64,000 nucleotides of DNA from Campylobacterales bacterium (lineage in GTDB: Bacteria > Campylobacterota > Campylobacteria > Campylobacterales > Sulfurimonadaceae), in contig JAFGVE010000024.1 in the NCBI GenBank assembly GCA_016938175.1, positions 1 through 64,000 on the forward strand, written 5' to 3'. Below the pieces are notes generated by a model that was not told the origin of the DNA, searched no databases, and saw nothing but the letters and a program-made list of their open reading frames with translations. A program made the translations under genes and the position numbers. Of this stretch, positions 1 through 7,342 are shown piece by piece (the stretch's first letter is position 1; each line of letters opens with the position of its first letter).

Positions 1-2
1 GT

Positions 3-79
3 GGGTTCTTAGCTCAGTTGGTTAGAGCTCTCGGCTCATAACCGAGCGGTCGAGTGTTCGAGTCACTCAGAACCCACCA
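3..79 (+). tRNA. tRNA with CAT anticodon (Met or Ile2)
   Basis: Cloverleaf by eye: acceptor GGGTTCT/AGAACCC, D-stem GCTC/GAGC, anticodon stem CTCGG/CCGAG with loop CTCATAA, T-arm GAGTG-TTCGAGT-CACTC, encoded CCA. Confidence 0.93.
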
Positions 80-84
80 CTTAC
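15..84 (+). repeat. left attachment repeat within the intact tRNA gene
   Basis: cagttggttagagctctcggctcataaccgagcggtcgagtgttcgagtcactcagaacccaccacttac, identical to 7273-7342. Confidence 0.93.
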
Positions 85-170
85 AAATCCCCTAAAGCCC
101 CCATAAACAAGTACTTTTAAAGCTGTTAATTGAGTTACTTATTATAGCTAAATATGTACTAATATCTCCT

Positions 171-202
171 AAAAGTAACCAAAAGTTACCTAAAAAGTTA
201 CC
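171..202. repeat. candidate integrase arm-type sites, left arm
   Basis: Three adjacent copies: AAAAGTAACC, AAAAGTTACC, TAAAAAGTTACC. Confidence 0.5.
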
Positions 203-443
203 ATTTATCTTATAATCTAAAGTAACTCATAGAGCCCCTACAAGCTCTTTTATATGTTAGGTAAGGTATTTGTACCTATAAAGAGATATAAGGGCTTCTC
301 CTAACTCCTAGAGGTGTTTAAAGTCTATGTATGAGCTCTAATTGATAAGTGTTATCAATAAGGAGTGCTATGGGGGTATTTCAATCAATCCCATATAAGA
401 GAGAGCTCTGAGATATTTTTAATATTTTTCAGTTAGGTAGTTG

Positions 444-1145
444 TCAGTTAGGTATAACTGAGGAATTAGAGTTTAACTCATCTGCAATCATCATAAGTTC
501 TTTCATAAAGTTCTTTAATGCAACATTACCTATCACTTCTTTTATCTGTAGCCCTTGACCTGAGCTTGATACATAAGGGAGTAATGCCTTTGCTAGATTA
601 AATCTGAGTTGCCCTCCTGCTTCTATAGCTCCATCAGTATAGAGTTTAAATACATAACCAAGTCTGATAGCAATATGATGAGAGTTGATTGTCTTGCTGT
701 AGTGGTCTTTTATGTATCTGCTAATCTTCTCTTTGCTGGAACATAGAGTTTCTTTTCTTGACCCCTTGAGTATCTCAATAGTAAATGCATAAGGGTTAGT
801 AAATAATTTATTAATTTTAGAGGCTAGTAATTCTACTGTATCTGAAGTAAAACCACTAGAGTATATTTTCCTTGCTGGTTTAGATACATCATTTCTGAAG
901 TTAAATGTAGTAGGGGAGTAAGTTCCATATTTATTTCTATCTTTCATATGCTCATAACATACACCTCCAAGTCTATGCCTATTATTAGTACAGCCATTTA
1001 CAGTACAAAGAAGTTTCATATTATTATGTATTCTTGGTAATGTAGTTTTTTGATTGTGTAGAATATGTGAGGGTTTAGTATCTTGATTATAATGTAATGG
1101 CTTCTTTGTAGGTTGTGGTATGAATTCTGTAAGTTTAAAATACAT
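444..1145 (-). CDS. hypothetical protein with Cys/His putative zinc-binding motif
   Basis: ORF with AGGAG upstream of the start; internal motif CTVNGCTNNRHRLGGVCYEH (C-x4-C-x10-C-x2-H). Confidence 0.65.
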   Translation of the reverse strand: MYFKLTEFIPQPTKKPLHYNQDTKPSHILHNQKTTLPRIHNNMKLLCTVNGCTNNRHRLGGVCYEHMKDRNKYGTYSPTTFNFRNDVSKPARKIYSSGFTSDTVELLASKINKLFTNPYAFTIEILKGSRKETLCSSKEKISRYIKDHYSKTINSHHIAIRLGYVFKLYTDGAIEAGGQLRFNLAKALLPYVSSSGQGLQIKEVIGNVALKNFMKELMMIADELNSNSSVIPN

Positions 1146-1206
1146 AATATTTATCTCCTTTCTTTGTATGATATAATTGATTGAATTGAATTTATAAGGT
1201 GTAAGT

Positions 1207-1524
1207 ATGTTAAAAATTATTATATGGATAATGTTGGTAGCTAGTGTAAGTTTCGCAAATAATGTAGAAGTTAAAGGCTGTCTCTTGAAAGTTGTAAATC
1301 AAGAGGGCTCATTTGCTAACTTAGATATGATTGATTTAAGAAAAGTTTCTAGAATATCTGTTGAGCAAAATAAAGATGATTTTACAATAGAGCTATATGT
1401 TTCAAACTCACTAGAAAGAATTTTTACTTATGAGGGGAGTACAGATAGTAAAAGTAAATACTATAAAAATACTGCAAATCTGAGTAAGATTATTGAAGCT
1501 ACTCAAACTTGTATGATGAAGTAA
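1207..1524 (+). CDS. small putative secreted protein
   Basis: N-terminal signal-peptide-like MLKIIIWIMLVASVSFANN; 105 aa. Confidence 0.6.
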   Translation: MLKIIIWIMLVASVSFANNVEVKGCLLKVVNQEGSFANLDMIDLRKVSRISVEQNKDDFTIELYVSNSLERIFTYEGSTDSKSKYYKNTANLSKIIEATQTCMMK

Positions 1525-1857
1525 ATAAAAATATATAGTAGTAATACAAAAGTGTGGTTGATTTTCCATAATCAGAACTTCATCTTTATATGGGTTTTCA
1601 ACTGCACTTTTTAGATACAGATATAGTAGTACAATAATATTATTAAACCCTATATGTTAGATACAATCAAGAGCCAAAAGGGGGCGAAGAATGAGCCCCT
1701 ATCAAGTCAAACTTTAGAGTGTAATACATATATATTTTATATCTTTTGTATCTAAATTATAGTTAATGTATTAAAGAAGTATTATAAGTGTATTATAATA
1801 GTATTAGAGCAAAATCCCTATCCTCTGTAATGCCATTGTTTAGGTACTTTAAGAGGG

Positions 1858-2007
1858 GTTCATTTTTACTTCGTTAACTCATTTTTACACTTGGTTAACT
1901 CATTTTTACATTTAGTAGTATTGTTGGTTAACTCATTTTTACATTTAGTTAATGACAATATATACTTGGTTAACTCATTTTTACATTTAGTTAATGAGAA
2001 TATATAC
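1858..2007. repeat. iteron-like array (candidate replication origin)
   Basis: Core CATTTTTAC starting at 1861, 1880, 1901, 1934, 1976; four copies share GTTAACTCATTTTTACA; last two are an exact 42-bp tandem (1924-1965, 1966-2007) with one mismatch. Confidence 0.75.
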
Positions 2008-2237
2008 AGCTATACATATATACTATGAAATATTTTGGCCAATCTCTTGTATCCACCTAAACAAGGGGCTTGTAGAGGATTTTAATTTTAGAAAGGAAAC
2101 TTACATTTTAAGAAAAGAAACTTTTGCCCCTCAGTAGTGCCTCAATATTCCGCCCCCCCATTAGAGTTTTCTTGTACTCCCACCTTGAGGGCTGAATAAT
2201 ATTACATAGGAATTTCTGTACCAACCCCATAGGGTGC

Positions 2238-3371
2238 CTAAAAGTCTATTGTAGCCTTCAAGTAAGGGTTTTCTATAATATTATATTTACTTTTATCTAC
2301 ATCACTTGGCAACTCCATAACTTCATTATCTGTAATAATTGCATAGTAACGACCATTAAGACCTAAGTAAGCATCAAGTTTATTTTCAAGTTCTGCCTCA
2401 TCTCTTGTACTCTCCATCAGGGGCAACTCTTCCATACCATCTATTATGTGAGCTTCTTCTTTTGTTACTTCTGGTACAAACTCCTCAGCCTTAGTAGTAG
2501 ATACCTCCTCATCAAACCACTCATCTTTAATATCCACATCAAAGATATCAACAGTATTATCCACCACTTTAGTCTTGCTTCTATTAGTACGAACATAAGC
2601 ATTTGCACTTCTAATACATTTATAATCAGTACCAATAACATCATTTATCTCTTTAAATGCTTTGCTTAATGTAGCACTTCTACTTTTGTTTGATTTTATT
2701 CTCTCCTCAAGATTGAGAAACTGTATTGCATCTTTGATTGATACATTTAGTTTCATTCCCAAATGATTATCTTGAGTTTTACCACCTTGCCCAATTACTT
2801 GTAAGTATCTATAAAGCTCTTTAGTATATATACTTTTAAAGGTTGGTAGATGCTCAATAGAAATGTACCTAGTTCCTCTCCCTTGCATCTGCTCAACAAA
2901 GCTTTTACTAATTCTATATTTAAACTTATCAGTCTGCTCATCAAACCTCAACCCATCACTAAATATTCTAAAATACCAATCTTCTACAGATGGCTTTGAT
3001 ACTTGAATACGAGTAAACTCTAGGCTCACTAATTGTTCTTTTAATTTGCTTCTATTATATCTATTATCAGCTTCTTTGATTAACCCTAAAAGTTTTGATA
3101 GACTTATTTCCACTTCTCCATCAAACCCCTCATAAGTAGTAAACTGTTTCCATTCAGATACTAAATAATCAATAATAATTCCATCAGATACATCAAGAGG
3201 TCTAACACCTGCAATCAAAAGCATTTCTCCTAAGTCATTTATTCTTATTGCCTCATACATAGCTGAACCATTATCATAAGTATTTAATTCATAAGAGCCA
3301 AGATACCAACTATAAACCATACTTGCTTCTCTAACAATAGGTGCTGTTCTGTTTAATTTAATTTCACTCAT
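2238..3371 (-). CDS. plasmid-type replication initiation protein (Rep_3-like)
   Basis: 377 aa; duplicated winged-helix-like layout with FKSIYTKELYRYLQVIGQ segment typical of plasmid initiators; neighbouring iterons. Confidence 0.65.
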   Translation of the reverse strand: MSEIKLNRTAPIVREASMVYSWYLGSYELNTYDNGSAMYEAIRINDLGEMLLIAGVRPLDVSDGIIIDYLVSEWKQFTTYEGFDGEVEISLSKLLGLIKEADNRYNRSKLKEQLVSLEFTRIQVSKPSVEDWYFRIFSDGLRFDEQTDKFKYRISKSFVEQMQGRGTRYISIEHLPTFKSIYTKELYRYLQVIGQGGKTQDNHLGMKLNVSIKDAIQFLNLEERIKSNKSRSATLSKAFKEINDVIGTDYKCIRSANAYVRTNRSKTKVVDNTVDIFDVDIKDEWFDEEVSTTKAEEFVPEVTKEEAHIIDGMEELPLMESTRDEAELENKLDAYLGLNGRYYAIITDNEVMELPSDVDKSKYNIIENPYLKATIDF

Positions 3372-3375
3372 ACCT

Positions 3376-3573
3376 CTATTCTCCCTCTGTTACAAAACTC
3401 ACATACCCAAACTCTGGAGCCTCTATTTTTTGTACTGATTTTTTCTCTGCATCTATAGACTTGTAACCCTCAATAATAAGAAACTCTACAAGCTCTTTTC
3501 TATTACACTTCATATAATCACACATACTATTCAATTTATGTTGGTATTTCTCCTCAATGTTTAACCTTAACAT
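3376..3573 (-). CDS. small hypothetical protein, possible ribbon-helix-helix
   Basis: 65 aa, 4 nt upstream of rep; SD AAGGAG-like (gacaaggagaaagtaaaATG). Confidence 0.55.
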   Translation of the reverse strand: MLRLNIEEKYQHKLNSMCDYMKCNRKELVEFLIIEGYKSIDAEKKSVQKIEAPEFGYVSFVTEGE

Positions 3574-3600
3574 TTTACTTTCTCCTTGTCCTTTTAGATT

Positions 3601-3673
3601 GTAGCTTCAAAGAACACTATAGACCAATCAAGGTGGACAAATACCTATAATCTATAATGCTCTTTGAAACTAC
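3601..3673 (-). ncRNA. candidate structured RNA in leader of rep operon
   Basis: 23-bp stem (3601-3623 with 3651-3673), 27-nt loop; the three non-Watson-Crick positions are all G.U on the minus-strand RNA. Confidence 0.55.
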
Positions 3674-3684
3674 ATTCTCTTTAA

Positions 3685-3698
3685 TCCCCAAGAGGGGA
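3685..3698 (-). other. short GC-rich hairpin preceding the long stem
   Basis: Minus strand TCCCC-TCTT-GGGGA. Confidence 0.4.
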
Positions 3699-3701
3699 CA
3701 C

Positions 3702-3848
3702 CTATTTTTTATCTGCCCTATAAGATTTAATAGCTAAGAATACAGTCATATTATCAGTACCATACCTCTCTGCAATTCTAGTAATAGACCATCTCTTTTT
3801 ATAGAGTAGATGCCACACTATCTTAGTAGCTAAATTATTCTCCAGCAT
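3702..3848 (-). CDS. 48-aa helix-turn-helix-like protein (absent from the ORF track)
   Basis: Translation MLENNLATKIVWHLLYKKRWSITRIAERYGTDNMTVFLAIKSYRADKK*; ATG overlaps the 3' end of the upstream ORF. Confidence 0.55.
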   Translation of the reverse strand: MLENNLATKIVWHLLYKKRWSITRIAERYGTDNMTVFLAIKSYRADKK

Positions 3849-4107
3849 CTCTGTAATGTGGGCTCATACTTTTTTTAGTAGCATCTAATATCAGAGAGTC
3901 AAGTAACTTTTTTACTCCCCCATCTGCTCCATCTTGTATTACTACTTCATCAAGTTTTAATTTAAGAAGTGATGCACTTGCAGAGAGTACACCTGAACTA
4001 ATTTCATACCCTTGACTCTCTGCTTCTGCTAAAGTATTGTTAGCAACTTTAAGAGCATTGAGGTAGAGCAGTTCCTTTTGCTTCTGTATTTCTTCACTCA
4101 TAGACAT
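3835..4107 (-). CDS. hypothetical protein, 90 aa
   Basis: Shares TAATG stop/start overlap with the upstream gene. Confidence 0.6.
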   Translation of the reverse strand: MSMSEEIQKQKELLYLNALKVANNTLAEAESQGYEISSGVLSASASLLKLKLDEVVIQDGADGGVKKLLDSLILDATKKSMSPHYRDAGE

Positions 4108-4304
4108 TACCTTTCTCTCCTTATCTTAGAGAGCCAACCCTTAGCTCCCTTATGTTTCTTTCTCTGAGCTTCCTTATGTGCCATACTAATATTAAATAAC
4201 TCATATTCTTTTTCTTTTTGAGTCATCTTCAAGTAATTAGTTTCATCAGTACTGCTCATAACTTCCCCTCCATTTATCCAAGTACAAGTCACATCTCTGC
4301 TCAT
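4107..4304 (-). CDS. hypothetical protein, 65 aa
   Basis: ATGA overlap with upstream gene, TAATG with downstream gene. Confidence 0.55.
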   Translation of the reverse strand: MSRDVTCTWINGGEVMSSTDETNYLKMTQKEKEYELFNISMAHKEAQRKKHKGAKGWLSKIRRER

Positions 4305-4555
4305 AAGACTTCCTCTGTCACATAAACCAAAGATGAGTTAAAGTTTGCATTTTGGTTAGCACCTGAGTAGATGCATTTAACTCCTGCCAAGTCCTTATCA
4401 TCTTTTGAGCCAATTTTATAGAGATAGCTCCCCACTTTATAATAGGTAGGTTTTATCTTTTGGTTTGCCCCCTCTCTATACTCTATTTTTACAAGGGAAA
4501 CTCCATCAAGTAGCACACTAATATCCATATACTCTGTTCCAAATCTAGTAAGCAT
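4301..4555 (-). CDS. hypothetical protein, 84 aa
   Basis: Compact same-strand cassette, ATGA overlap. Confidence 0.55.
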   Translation of the reverse strand: MLTRFGTEYMDISVLLDGVSLVKIEYREGANQKIKPTYYKVGSYLYKIGSKDDKDLAGVKCIYSGANQNANFNSSLVYVTEEVL

Positions 4556-4557
4556 AA

Positions 4558-5172
4558 TTATTTCTCCACCAAACTATCATCATTTAAGATACCAAAAGAC
4601 TCTGCACTTCCACCTGATTGTAAGTGTTCCATAAAGGCAGCCTCACTCTCTTGTTGAGCTTGTTGGTACATAGCATCTGCATTATATTCTTGAATACTCC
4701 CATCTCTGTTTTGTACATATACCTTACCTGTTTGGGGATTTTCAAAGGTAATAATCTCATCTTCATTAAATGAGTTTCTCTTAGCATCAAACTCCTTTCT
4801 TGTCTGCTCTAGTATCTCTTCATCAGTTATCCCATTGTTATAAGTATGGGCTGTAGATACAACCATCTCAAAGGAAGATGAGAGGTTATTATCAAGAGCA
4901 ACAGCTTCTTTACCTGCATTGAGTAATACCTGTATTTGATTATCATTCAGAGCTTCAATCCCACCTATACTATTTATATCTTTTTGTAATTCCATAGCCT
5001 TAGTTTTTACTTCTTCATTGTAACTTCTAGATGCCTCAGATAACATCACTCCAAGCATACTGTTTAAGTTACCTCTGCTCTGTCTATAGTTGCTCTCATC
5101 TGCTTTGTTAGCTACACCATTTGCAATTCTAAGTGCTTGTACCATCTCCATTTCTTCTTGTGTTAATTTCAT
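4558..5172 (-). CDS. hypothetical protein, 204 aa
   Basis: Long ORF in same-strand cassette, AGGAG upstream of start. Confidence 0.65.
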   Translation of the reverse strand: MKLTQEEMEMVQALRIANGVANKADESNYRQSRGNLNSMLGVMLSEASRSYNEEVKTKAMELQKDINSIGGIEALNDNQIQVLLNAGKEAVALDNNLSSSFEMVVSTAHTYNNGITDEEILEQTRKEFDAKRNSFNEDEIITFENPQTGKVYVQNRDGSIQEYNADAMYQQAQQESEAAFMEHLQSGGSAESFGILNDDSLVEK

Positions 5173-5186
5173 TATTATTTCTCCTA

Positions 5187-5540
5187 TTAGATTGTTGTTA
5201 AGTTGTGTTCTATAACTCTGTCTTTTAAGTCTTTTTCAAAAGCTATATGTAAAAGCCTCTCCATATTCCTGCTGTACCAAGTCTTGTTTGGATTATCACT
5301 ACCATCTAAAGATAGTACATACTCCCCATTACTTGAAGTGTCTATTCTCCATCTTGCTGTGAGCTGATAGTCTTTAGCCAACTCATAGTACTCTTGAAGT
5401 AACTTTGTGGCTTCTCCTAACTCTGAGAGGTCTTTTATGAGCTGTTCTGATTTAGCTATTATTGAAGTAAATTCTCTGGACATAAATGTGCCATTGAGTA
5501 CCCAACAATTACTGCTGTCTTTGGTTGCAATATCAAGCAT
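5187..5540 (-). CDS. hypothetical protein, 117 aa
   Basis: ORF in same-strand cassette. Confidence 0.6.
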   Translation of the reverse strand: MLDIATKDSSNCWVLNGTFMSREFTSIIAKSEQLIKDLSELGEATKLLQEYYELAKDYQLTARWRIDTSSNGEYVLSLDGSDNPNKTWYSRNMERLLHIAFEKDLKDRVIEHNLTTI

Positions 5541-5541
5541 C

Positions 5542-5748
5542 TTAATAGTCTGCCTTTATGTGTGCAACTGAGTTAATAATATCCATCTGTCTTGCTTCAA
5601 ACTCTTTGTCTAGTAAATATGCAAATACTCTAGCCTTTGTGAATTTAGTGTGAGTAGTAGCTTCAAGAAATAGTATTAACATTTCTAATCTTTTCTTTTC
5701 AAAGTATGTCAGCCTTGTTCTAAGCATATAGTCCTTTGTAAGTGCCAT
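5542..5748 (-). CDS. small hypothetical protein, possible ribbon-helix-helix or excisionase-like
   Basis: 68 aa, first gene of the cassette; RTRLTYFEKKRLEMLILFLEA resembles small DNA-binding proteins. Confidence 0.5.
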   Translation of the reverse strand: MALTKDYMLRTRLTYFEKKRLEMLILFLEATTHTKFTKARVFAYLLDKEFEARQMDIINSVAHIKADY

Positions 5749-5949
5749 TGTTTGTGTTCTCCTTTTGTGTGTTAATGTAAAGATATTTATGTATCCTTTC
5801 TCTGTAATTGTCTATTTACAACATAGATTTTAAGAGCCCCATAAATAGGGAGTTTAGAGCCTTATAAGTGAGCATAAAAAGAGCTCCTAAAAAGTAACCT
5901 CCTCCTATAATAAGAGGGTATATTCTTAAAGTTACCCTAAATAAATAAA

Positions 5950-7149
5950 CTAATTTAATAGCTCCACTACCTCTTGTAACTGCTTTATAGAGTAGCCATT
6001 TGCATATCTGGATAGTGTCATTGATGAGTGAGTATGCCCCATAAGCTCAGATACAATAGAACTGCTTGCTCCTCTATGTATAAGTTCAGTAGCAAAAGTG
6101 TGCCTTAGAGAGTAAAGTGACTTAGTAGCTGTATTATCTAAAGTTTTATCAATATACTTTTTAGTGACTTTAGAGAGATATTGACTTGAGTATTTAGCAG
6201 TAAGTACAGGAAGATTATCAAGCCCATCTATAAGTGATGAGTGAACAGGTACAACTCTATAACTGCTGAGAGTTTTTAACTGTAGAGTAGGGCTAGTTAA
6301 ATCAAAACAAAGTACACCATCTATATTAGTAACTTCACATTTAAGTAACTCACTTGGTCTTAAACCACTATATGCAAGAGCTTTGATGAGGTATATATAT
6401 TCACAATCTGAGTATGTATTTAGTAGTAGAGATAACTCCTGAGAGCTTATAGGTGACTTCTGTTCTCTTGCTTTTTTAAGTGGTAGTAATTTGAGTGATG
6501 AAGTTATGTTTGATACAACCAAGCCCCTATTATGAGCATAGACAAAGAGTGCCTTTAGTTGCTTCAAGTATTCATTGACTGTTTTATTACTAATTCTTTC
6601 ATCATCTAATATTGTAGTACAAGATAATAGTTCATCAAGCCCCATCAATCTGTACTTCTGTATGTTTCTCTTAGGTAGTTTAATAAGTGAGCTTTTACAG
6701 TTATCTATATCCTTGTAAGTAATTTTAGATATTTCCCTATTTCCATTGACTATGTGGCTTATAGTATTGAGGATTGTACTATACTCTTGAAGCCTTTGTT
6801 GAGTTACATTTAGAGAAGATAAATATCCTTGTATTACTTCATCAAGTGTAAGAGGCTTAGTTACTTCTACTGCTGTTTTGTTGGTATGTAATATTTTAGT
6901 AGATACATAAGGAGTAACAATATCCATTACAGCTTGCTCTTTTACTTCATCAGTTAATGAGAGTTTCAGAGTATTAAGAGCTTTGTTTATATTGTTAGAG
7001 ATAACATCAGCTTTACTTTGAGCCTCTTGTATGTCTTTACTGAGGGCAACTTTAAGGATTGACTTGTTAATGTACTGCTGTAGGTTAGTAGGTATTTTTC
7101 TAATGTAAGTGTAAGTGCCACCCTTAGTGGTTTTAATGTATTTGTTCAT
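5950..7149 (-). CDS. tyrosine recombinase/integrase
   Basis: Catalytic motifs ALAYSGLRPSELL, YSLRHTFATELIHRG, LMGHTHSSMTLSRYAN. Confidence 0.93.
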   Translation of the reverse strand: MNKYIKTTKGGTYTYIRKIPTNLQQYINKSILKVALSKDIQEAQSKADVISNNINKALNTLKLSLTDEVKEQAVMDIVTPYVSTKILHTNKTAVEVTKPLTLDEVIQGYLSSLNVTQQRLQEYSTILNTISHIVNGNREISKITYKDIDNCKSSLIKLPKRNIQKYRLMGLDELLSCTTILDDERISNKTVNEYLKQLKALFVYAHNRGLVVSNITSSLKLLPLKKAREQKSPISSQELSLLLNTYSDCEYIYLIKALAYSGLRPSELLKCEVTNIDGVLCFDLTSPTLQLKTLSSYRVVPVHSSLIDGLDNLPVLTAKYSSQYLSKVTKKYIDKTLDNTATKSLYSLRHTFATELIHRGASSSIVSELMGHTHSSMTLSRYANGYSIKQLQEVVELLN

Positions 7150-7182
7150 CTGAGAACCTTTAAAAGTATTCTCAATAAACAG

Positions 7183-7207
7183 CTAAAAAGTTACCAAAAA
7201 AGTTACC
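7183..7207. repeat. candidate integrase arm-type sites, right arm
   Basis: Two adjacent copies: CTAAAAAGTTACC, AAAAAAGTTACC, between int and the right repeat. Confidence 0.5.
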
Positions 7208-7272
7208 TTTATGAATAATACATAAGAGATAATAACTAGTAAGTGCCTAGTTTAGGGCTTCATTAAGGGTTA

Positions 7273-7342
7273 CAGTTGGTTAGAGCTCTCGGCTCATAAC
7301 CGAGCGGTCGAGTGTTCGAGTCACTCAGAACCCACCACTTAC
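7273..7342 (+). repeat. right attachment repeat, displaced tRNA 3' fragment
   Basis: 70/70 identity with 15-84; lacks the 5' acceptor half so is not a functional tRNA. Confidence 0.93.

Follow-up and report, generated by a model that had tools for sequence, protein, structure and literature searches.

What kind of mobile element lies between a complete tRNA gene and a displaced copy of that gene's 3′ end, carrying both a tyrosine integrase and a plasmid-type replication initiator? The question is raised by the first 7.3 kb of a 64,000-nucleotide stretch of DNA (hereafter the window; contig JAFGVE010000024.1, assembly GCA_016938175.1) from a Campylobacterales bacterium of the family Sulfurimonadaceae. 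An earlier reading of the window, made from the sequence alone, proposed a 7,258-bp integrative element in a tRNA(CAT) gene. Our analysis indicates that this element is probably an integrative plasmid, which would switch between residence in the chromosome and theta replication as a circle and would be transferred by means of a helper or DNA uptake. Speaking for this, as far as DNA sequence can, are the borders, the restored tRNA gene, an intact integrase, arm-like repeats, iterons, an undivided target in relatives and related elements at other tRNA genes. In a limited search of the literature we found no description of compact integrate-or-replicate elements of this sort in the Sulfurimonas group.

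Borders and target site

The element is delimited by a 70-bp direct repeat (15..84 and 7273..7342, both on the plus strand). As the sequence-only reading had stated, the copies are identical at 70/70 positions, and their spacing gives the element length of 7,258 bp; among the few k-mers of at least 20 bp that recur in the window, this repeat comes first. The left copy, the attL core, lies in an intact tRNA-Met-type gene with anticodon CAT (3..79, plus strand), found by both ARAGORN and Rfam, whose 5′ part is chromosomal and whose 3′ part the element has restored. The right copy, attR, lacks the first bases of the tRNA and is a displaced 3′ fragment. Accordingly, the Rfam tRNA model gives the left copy 69.4 bits and the right remnant (7267..7334) 29.5 bits, barely above threshold. 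A whole tRNA gene at one end and a 3′ tRNA fragment at the other are the usual mark of an island whose tyrosine recombinase restores its target, and this is the arrangement found here, which upholds the proposed insertion in a tRNA(CAT) gene. A chance match, or a pair of ordinary tRNA genes, is ruled out by the missing 5′ acceptor strand of the right copy.

Position 1 of the window is base 1 of its contig (C9), so the contig begins at the tRNA gene. The left flank is supplied by a second contig of the same assembly (C21), whose last 85 bases (C21:149142-149226) equal window positions 1-85 and which, judged by eye, carries an RND-type gene and then a truncated-haemoglobin-type gene before the tRNA. 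After the repeat, C21 continues with the A of the element, where the right flank has T. Although it is only one base, it fits the integrated form. The contig break falls exactly at the occupied tRNA gene, with an 85-bp overlap, and could mean either that the reads contained both integrated and excised forms or that the assembly broke here for an unrelated reason.

In the genus, which we take to be the GTDB Sulfurimonas group, 100 genomes were sampled for the tRNA, and the target was found in 98 of them; the element was absent from all sampled relatives. In two single-contig chromosomes (G011 and G132) the tRNA is single-copy, undivided and identical at 84/84 positions, with the same upstream gene as here. 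Downstream of it, these two genomes and two others (G032 and G136) keep tlyA in the same order and orientation, at a distance of about 30 kb, compared with 4.2 kb in the window after removal of the element. The empty site that the sequence-only reading had called for in related genomes can therefore be recognized from the undivided tRNA and its left flank, whereas the right flank is not conserved. About ten other genomes (L081-L092) carry 3′ fragments of the same tRNA(CAT) some 1.5-20 kb downstream of it, several of them with other integrases, and for this reason the gene is an integration hotspot.

One further observation concerns the sequence that trails the tRNA. Many genomes of the genus have a conserved motif of ~30 nt (AAACyCCCTAAA..ACGAACTTTCAAAG) 3′ of tRNA-Met, and similar sequence behind tRNA-Asn and tRNA-Ser. 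The left end of the element bears a version of it (window 80-130), and the motif or its relatives stand immediately 3′ of tRNA genes at L041, L045, L049, L055, L059, L060, L065, L083, L183 and other loci. Possibly it serves as a tRNA trailer or termination signal, resupplied by integrating elements.

The integrase and its candidate binding sites

The integrase gene that the earlier reading had placed beside the right repeat is present there (5950..7149, minus strand) and encodes 399 amino acids. The protein matches PF00589 (E=1.2e-10) and phrog_1 (E=1.1e-40), and in an alignment among six relatives its catalytic residues R264, K292, R349, H372 and Y382 fall in invariant columns. It is full-length and starts 124 bp from attR, so that an intact tyrosine integrase stands beside an attachment site.

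Both ends of the element also carry short repeats that were not on the earlier list. On the left are AAAGTAACC at 172 and AAAAGTTACC at 181 and 193 (172..202, plus strand), and on the right AAAAGTTACC recurs at 7186 and 7198 (7186..7207, plus strand); the spacing within each AAAAGTTACC pair is 12 bp. Measured inward from the cores, the pairs lie at ~66-87 bp on the right and 97-118 bp on the left. Their core, AAAGTTACC, has five copies in the 64 kb, where 0.7 would be expected, and every one is within the element. In a circle the paired repeats would flank the att core in the manner of arm-type integrase sites, a function suggested by their placement. Short words are likewise common to both ends of two related elements described below (L094 and L101). 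Adjoining the integrase gene is a 68-amino-acid open reading frame (ORF; 5542..5748, minus strand) that, judged by eye only, could be a small DNA-binding regulator or an excision factor.

The replication module

The 377-amino-acid ORF at 2238..3371 (minus strand), here called rep, probably encodes a divergent Rep_3 initiator. Its product aligns to the N-terminal domain of Rep_3 across the conserved SkYs..lYelLk stretch. The match to PF01051 has an E-value of 5.9e-4 and 20.7 bits in hmmscan, below the cut-off of 22.4, and 23.5 bits in a six-frame search, above it. The homology to initiators claimed from the sequence alone has thus passed narrowly, on a borderline match. A profile built from 22 Rep_3 proteins of the genus gives a weak signal of 13.3 bits, against 6.4 bits for the best of 200 shuffles of the protein itself. 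A sequence search of the PDB returned no match.

On the 3′ side of rep lies a non-coding region of 713 bp and 30% GC (1525..2237), which we propose as the origin of replication (oriV). It contains the iteron-like repeats of the earlier reading, which hold up as four exact copies of the 17-mer GTTAACTCATTTTTACA at 1873, 1894, 1927 and 1969 (1873..1989, plus strand; spacing 21, 33 and 42). Not one of 2000 shuffles of the region gave any repeated 17-mer, and the repeats have the size (~17-22 bp) and the proximity to rep of a Rep_3 iteron replicon.

Just 4 bp upstream of rep is a 65-amino-acid ORF (3376..3573, minus strand), possibly a ribbon-helix-helix regulator or a rep leader. Its single-sequence model begins with a strand, a helix and a helix (predicted local distance difference test score, pLDDT, 72), and a fold search with that model found nothing significant; to name it ribbon-helix-helix is only a guess.

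Taken together, these parts suggest how the element might live. Its own integrase would recombine the 70-bp attP core with the 3′ part of tRNA(CAT), restoring the tRNA upon integration. Once excised, the circle would be replicated by the theta mode, with the Rep_3-type initiator probably binding the iterons 3′ of rep. Replication would prevent loss of the element and supply copies for spread, and entry into new cells would call for outside help (the machinery of a helper plasmid or phage) or DNA uptake. The small ORFs may regulate these steps.

Several observations weigh against this picture. The Rep score is borderline, Rep has no match to the Rep3_C domain, and its single-sequence AlphaFold model (pLDDT 31) is unusable as confirmation of the fold. 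No relative of Rep came up when IMG/VR and GTDB contigs were scanned by pattern or when phages and plasmids were searched by tblastn, and among the genomes of the phylum there were four matches, all weaker than E=0.001 and none confident. The two patterns tried for a DnaA box found none near the iterons. At the target, the native right flank next to the tRNA is not conserved in relatives, so the empty site is seen for the tRNA and its left side only. The left border crosses a contig end, with the junction reconstructed across it, and neither attP nor attB occurs in any contig of the assembly, which holds the integrated form only.

Related elements in the genus

The clade to which the integrase belongs is present in Sulfurimonas, Sulfuricurvum, Malaciobacter and related metagenome-assembled genomes. 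Five sister elements have clean direct repeats of 61-124 bp and lengths of 4.0-9.7 kb, and four of them lie at identified tRNA genes. These are L094 (4,503 bp) and L095 (9,651 bp) at tRNA-Ser, L101 (7,906 bp) at tRNA-Val and L030 (3,960 bp, its integrase broken) at tRNA-Met/Asn, with L096 (4,984 bp) at a tRNA remnant. Their integrases are about 31-44% identical to that of the window, and they differ from the window element in their tRNAs and in their non-integrase genes, which are DEAD-type helicase-like, SSB, serine resolvase-like and polymerase-like by eye. No Rep_3 was seen in any of the five. A 4.5-kb element encodes a 537-amino-acid protein (L027:11130-12743) with the look of a family-A-like polymerase by eye (DLTAAAP and HDGF motifs) and with no significant match in Pfam, NCBIfam or PHROG. 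Another locus of the integrase clade (L102:6100-14400) lies between two near-identical copies of a transposase gene, 6,751 bp apart.

Several chromosomes of the genus have Rep_3 genes close to other integrases. The clearest case is L183 (8551-15669, on the closed chromosome G012), an element of 7,030 bp at tRNA-Ser with a 27-bp repeat, which carries Rep3_N and Rep3_C, a RepB-type primase, 21-bp iterons and an integrase. It is like the window element in its tRNA 3′ end, tyrosine integrase, Rep_3, iterons and similar size. It is unlike it in its tRNA, its distant integrase, iterons that lie 5′ of rep, the RepB-type primase and a 730-amino-acid ORF without a known family. That the same parts have come together independently in L183 is the strongest evidence that the combination functions and recurs.

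Two independent 7-kb elements with an integrase, Rep_3 and iterons in one genus, together with one integrase clade that has differing non-integrase genes at several tRNAs, suggest that the small integrative plasmids of the genus are built by module swapping. A bolder proposal would make these elements an undescribed Campylobacterota clade in which a single lineage of integrases has picked up unrelated replication modules time and again: Rep_3 and iterons here, helicase-, SSB- and polymerase-like genes in the sisters. The window member would then be a satellite that depends on a helper and acts on it through its orphan small genes. We regard this proposal as doubtful. For practical purposes, integrative or shuttle vectors for these environmental bacteria could be developed from the defined att site, the arm repeats and the proposed oriV.

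Cargo genes

Besides rep and the integrase gene, the element has about ten small ORFs, none with a confident family. The largest is a 233-amino-acid ORF (444..1145, minus strand) with weak similarity to HNH-endonuclease-like zinc fingers, followed by a 105-amino-acid small protein whose N-terminus looks by eye like a signal peptide (1207..1524, plus strand). The others are on the minus strand: a 48-amino-acid small helix-turn-helix (HTH) protein (3705..3851; HTH_23, E=1.3e-4, below cut-off), and ORFs of no family with 90 (3835..4107), 65 (4107..4304), 84 (4301..4555), 204 (4558..5172) and 117 amino acids (5187..5540). Searches for the 204- and the 233-amino-acid protein, in 396 other genomes of the phylum and by pattern in IMG/VR, gave no relative of either. 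PADLOC found no defence gene on the element, and a promoter scan did no better than shuffles. Compared with plasmids, the DNA of the element has best places that cover just 1-2% of the query, chiefly the tRNA part.

The sequence-only reading had seen no relaxase, capsid or recognisable partition gene, and we find none either. No relaxase family matches any ORF of the element, and the host genome has no match to PF03432 (one relaxase family of several). The same holds for type IV secretion genes among the ORFs of the element, and for the VirB4 family PF03135 in the host genome.

Alternative explanations

If not an integrative plasmid of the kind proposed, the element could be a decayed or cis-mobilised integrative mobilisable element (IME) resembling SGI1 or BcenGI2, which has lost its relaxase or whose origin of transfer is served by a relaxase in trans. 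The integrase, Rep_3 and iterons do occur in SGI1 order, and other loci of the genus that pair Rep_3 with an integrase have large ORFs that are maybe relaxases, without confirmation from Pfam. With no relaxase remnant detected in the element, and with a genome that itself lacks PF03432 and VirB4 matches, we consider this origin unlikely.

Another candidate is a phage satellite, in which a helper phage would trigger excision and replication by Rep and package the circle, while the small ORFs interfere with the helper or exploit it. Size and orphan small-ORF content do resemble those of PICMI-type satellites (PMC10803314), and the 48-amino-acid HTH ORF has a very weak terminase-HTH-like match. 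The AlpA, DUF3987 primase, capsid, terminase and packaging families were all without a match, though, no record of a phage, of a plasmid or of IMG/VR carries Rep, and neither of the two cargo proteins tested turned up in IMG/VR. The satellite explanation thus seems improbable to us; an ordinary prophage is rejected since there is no structural gene.

We also doubt that this is a fixed genomic island, in which the integrase and rep genes persist, excision has been lost and inheritance is vertical only. The assembly does contain the integrated form alone, and the integrase of one sister, L030, is broken. A perfect 70/70 repeat, intact integrase, rep, arm repeats and absence from the sampled relatives point instead to recent activity.

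Finally, it is most improbable that the assembly fused a separate plasmid to a chromosomal contig through 70 bp of tRNA sequence common to both. The contig break does fall at the tRNA, with an overlap of just 85 bp between the two contigs, but C9 continues without a gap from the tRNA across the element and on into chromosomal DNA that includes tlyA, a gene found downstream of the tRNA in four relatives, and C21 ends with the element base A rather than the right-flank T after the repeat. On the tlyA synteny, we reject such a misjoin.

Comparison with known systems

An integrative plasmid of this design can be set beside several described systems. The PICMI satellites have a minimal plan of an integrase, replication and a few unknown genes, and are very small (PMC10803314). 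They carry AlpA and a DUF3987/DUF5906 primase and have a target next to fis, whereas the window element has neither the AlpA nor the primase families and targets a tRNA; on these families it falls outside the PICMI class. The type IV secretion genes of an integrative conjugative element were not found in it. Nor, lacking a detectable relaxase, does it qualify as an IME of the SGI1/BcenGI2 type.

Among small integrative plasmids, pHS87b of Pseudomonas aeruginosa (11.2 kb) lies at a tRNA 3′ end, and both its circular and integrated forms were measured (PMC4739549). It is unlike the window element in having a P4-type integrase, phage-related genes and no known replication gene. BcenGI2 of Burkholderia is tabulated with a tyrosine integrase, a tRNA 3′ end and Rep_3 (PMC5704250). 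It is listed as a putative IME, hence with a mobilisation module, and with a toxin-antitoxin system as well (PMC5704250); neither was found in the window element.

The sequence-only reading had suggested an undescribed family. As a kind this is overstated (PMC5704250, PMC7826253), for the combination of integrase, Rep_3 and tRNA 3′ end is already on record for BcenGI2, SGI1 pairs an integrase with Rep_3, and pHS87b is a small plasmid known both as a circle and in a tRNA. What stands is novelty at the sequence level, since none of the collections searched yielded a relative of Rep or of the two cargo proteins tested. Unusual too are the small size, the orphan cargo and the lack of a detectable mobilisation gene.

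SGI1 has a proven Rep_3/iteron replicon, and its circle replicates after excision (PMC7826253). It is unlike the window element in being much larger, integrating at trmE, needing IncC activators and being mobilised by IncC plasmids. In SGI1 a small leader ORF lies just upstream of rep, and an oriV with four iteron-like repeats lies just downstream (PMC7826253). The window element repeats this order, with its 65-amino-acid ORF, a gap of 4 bp, rep and then the iterons, a likeness in the layout of the two replicons.

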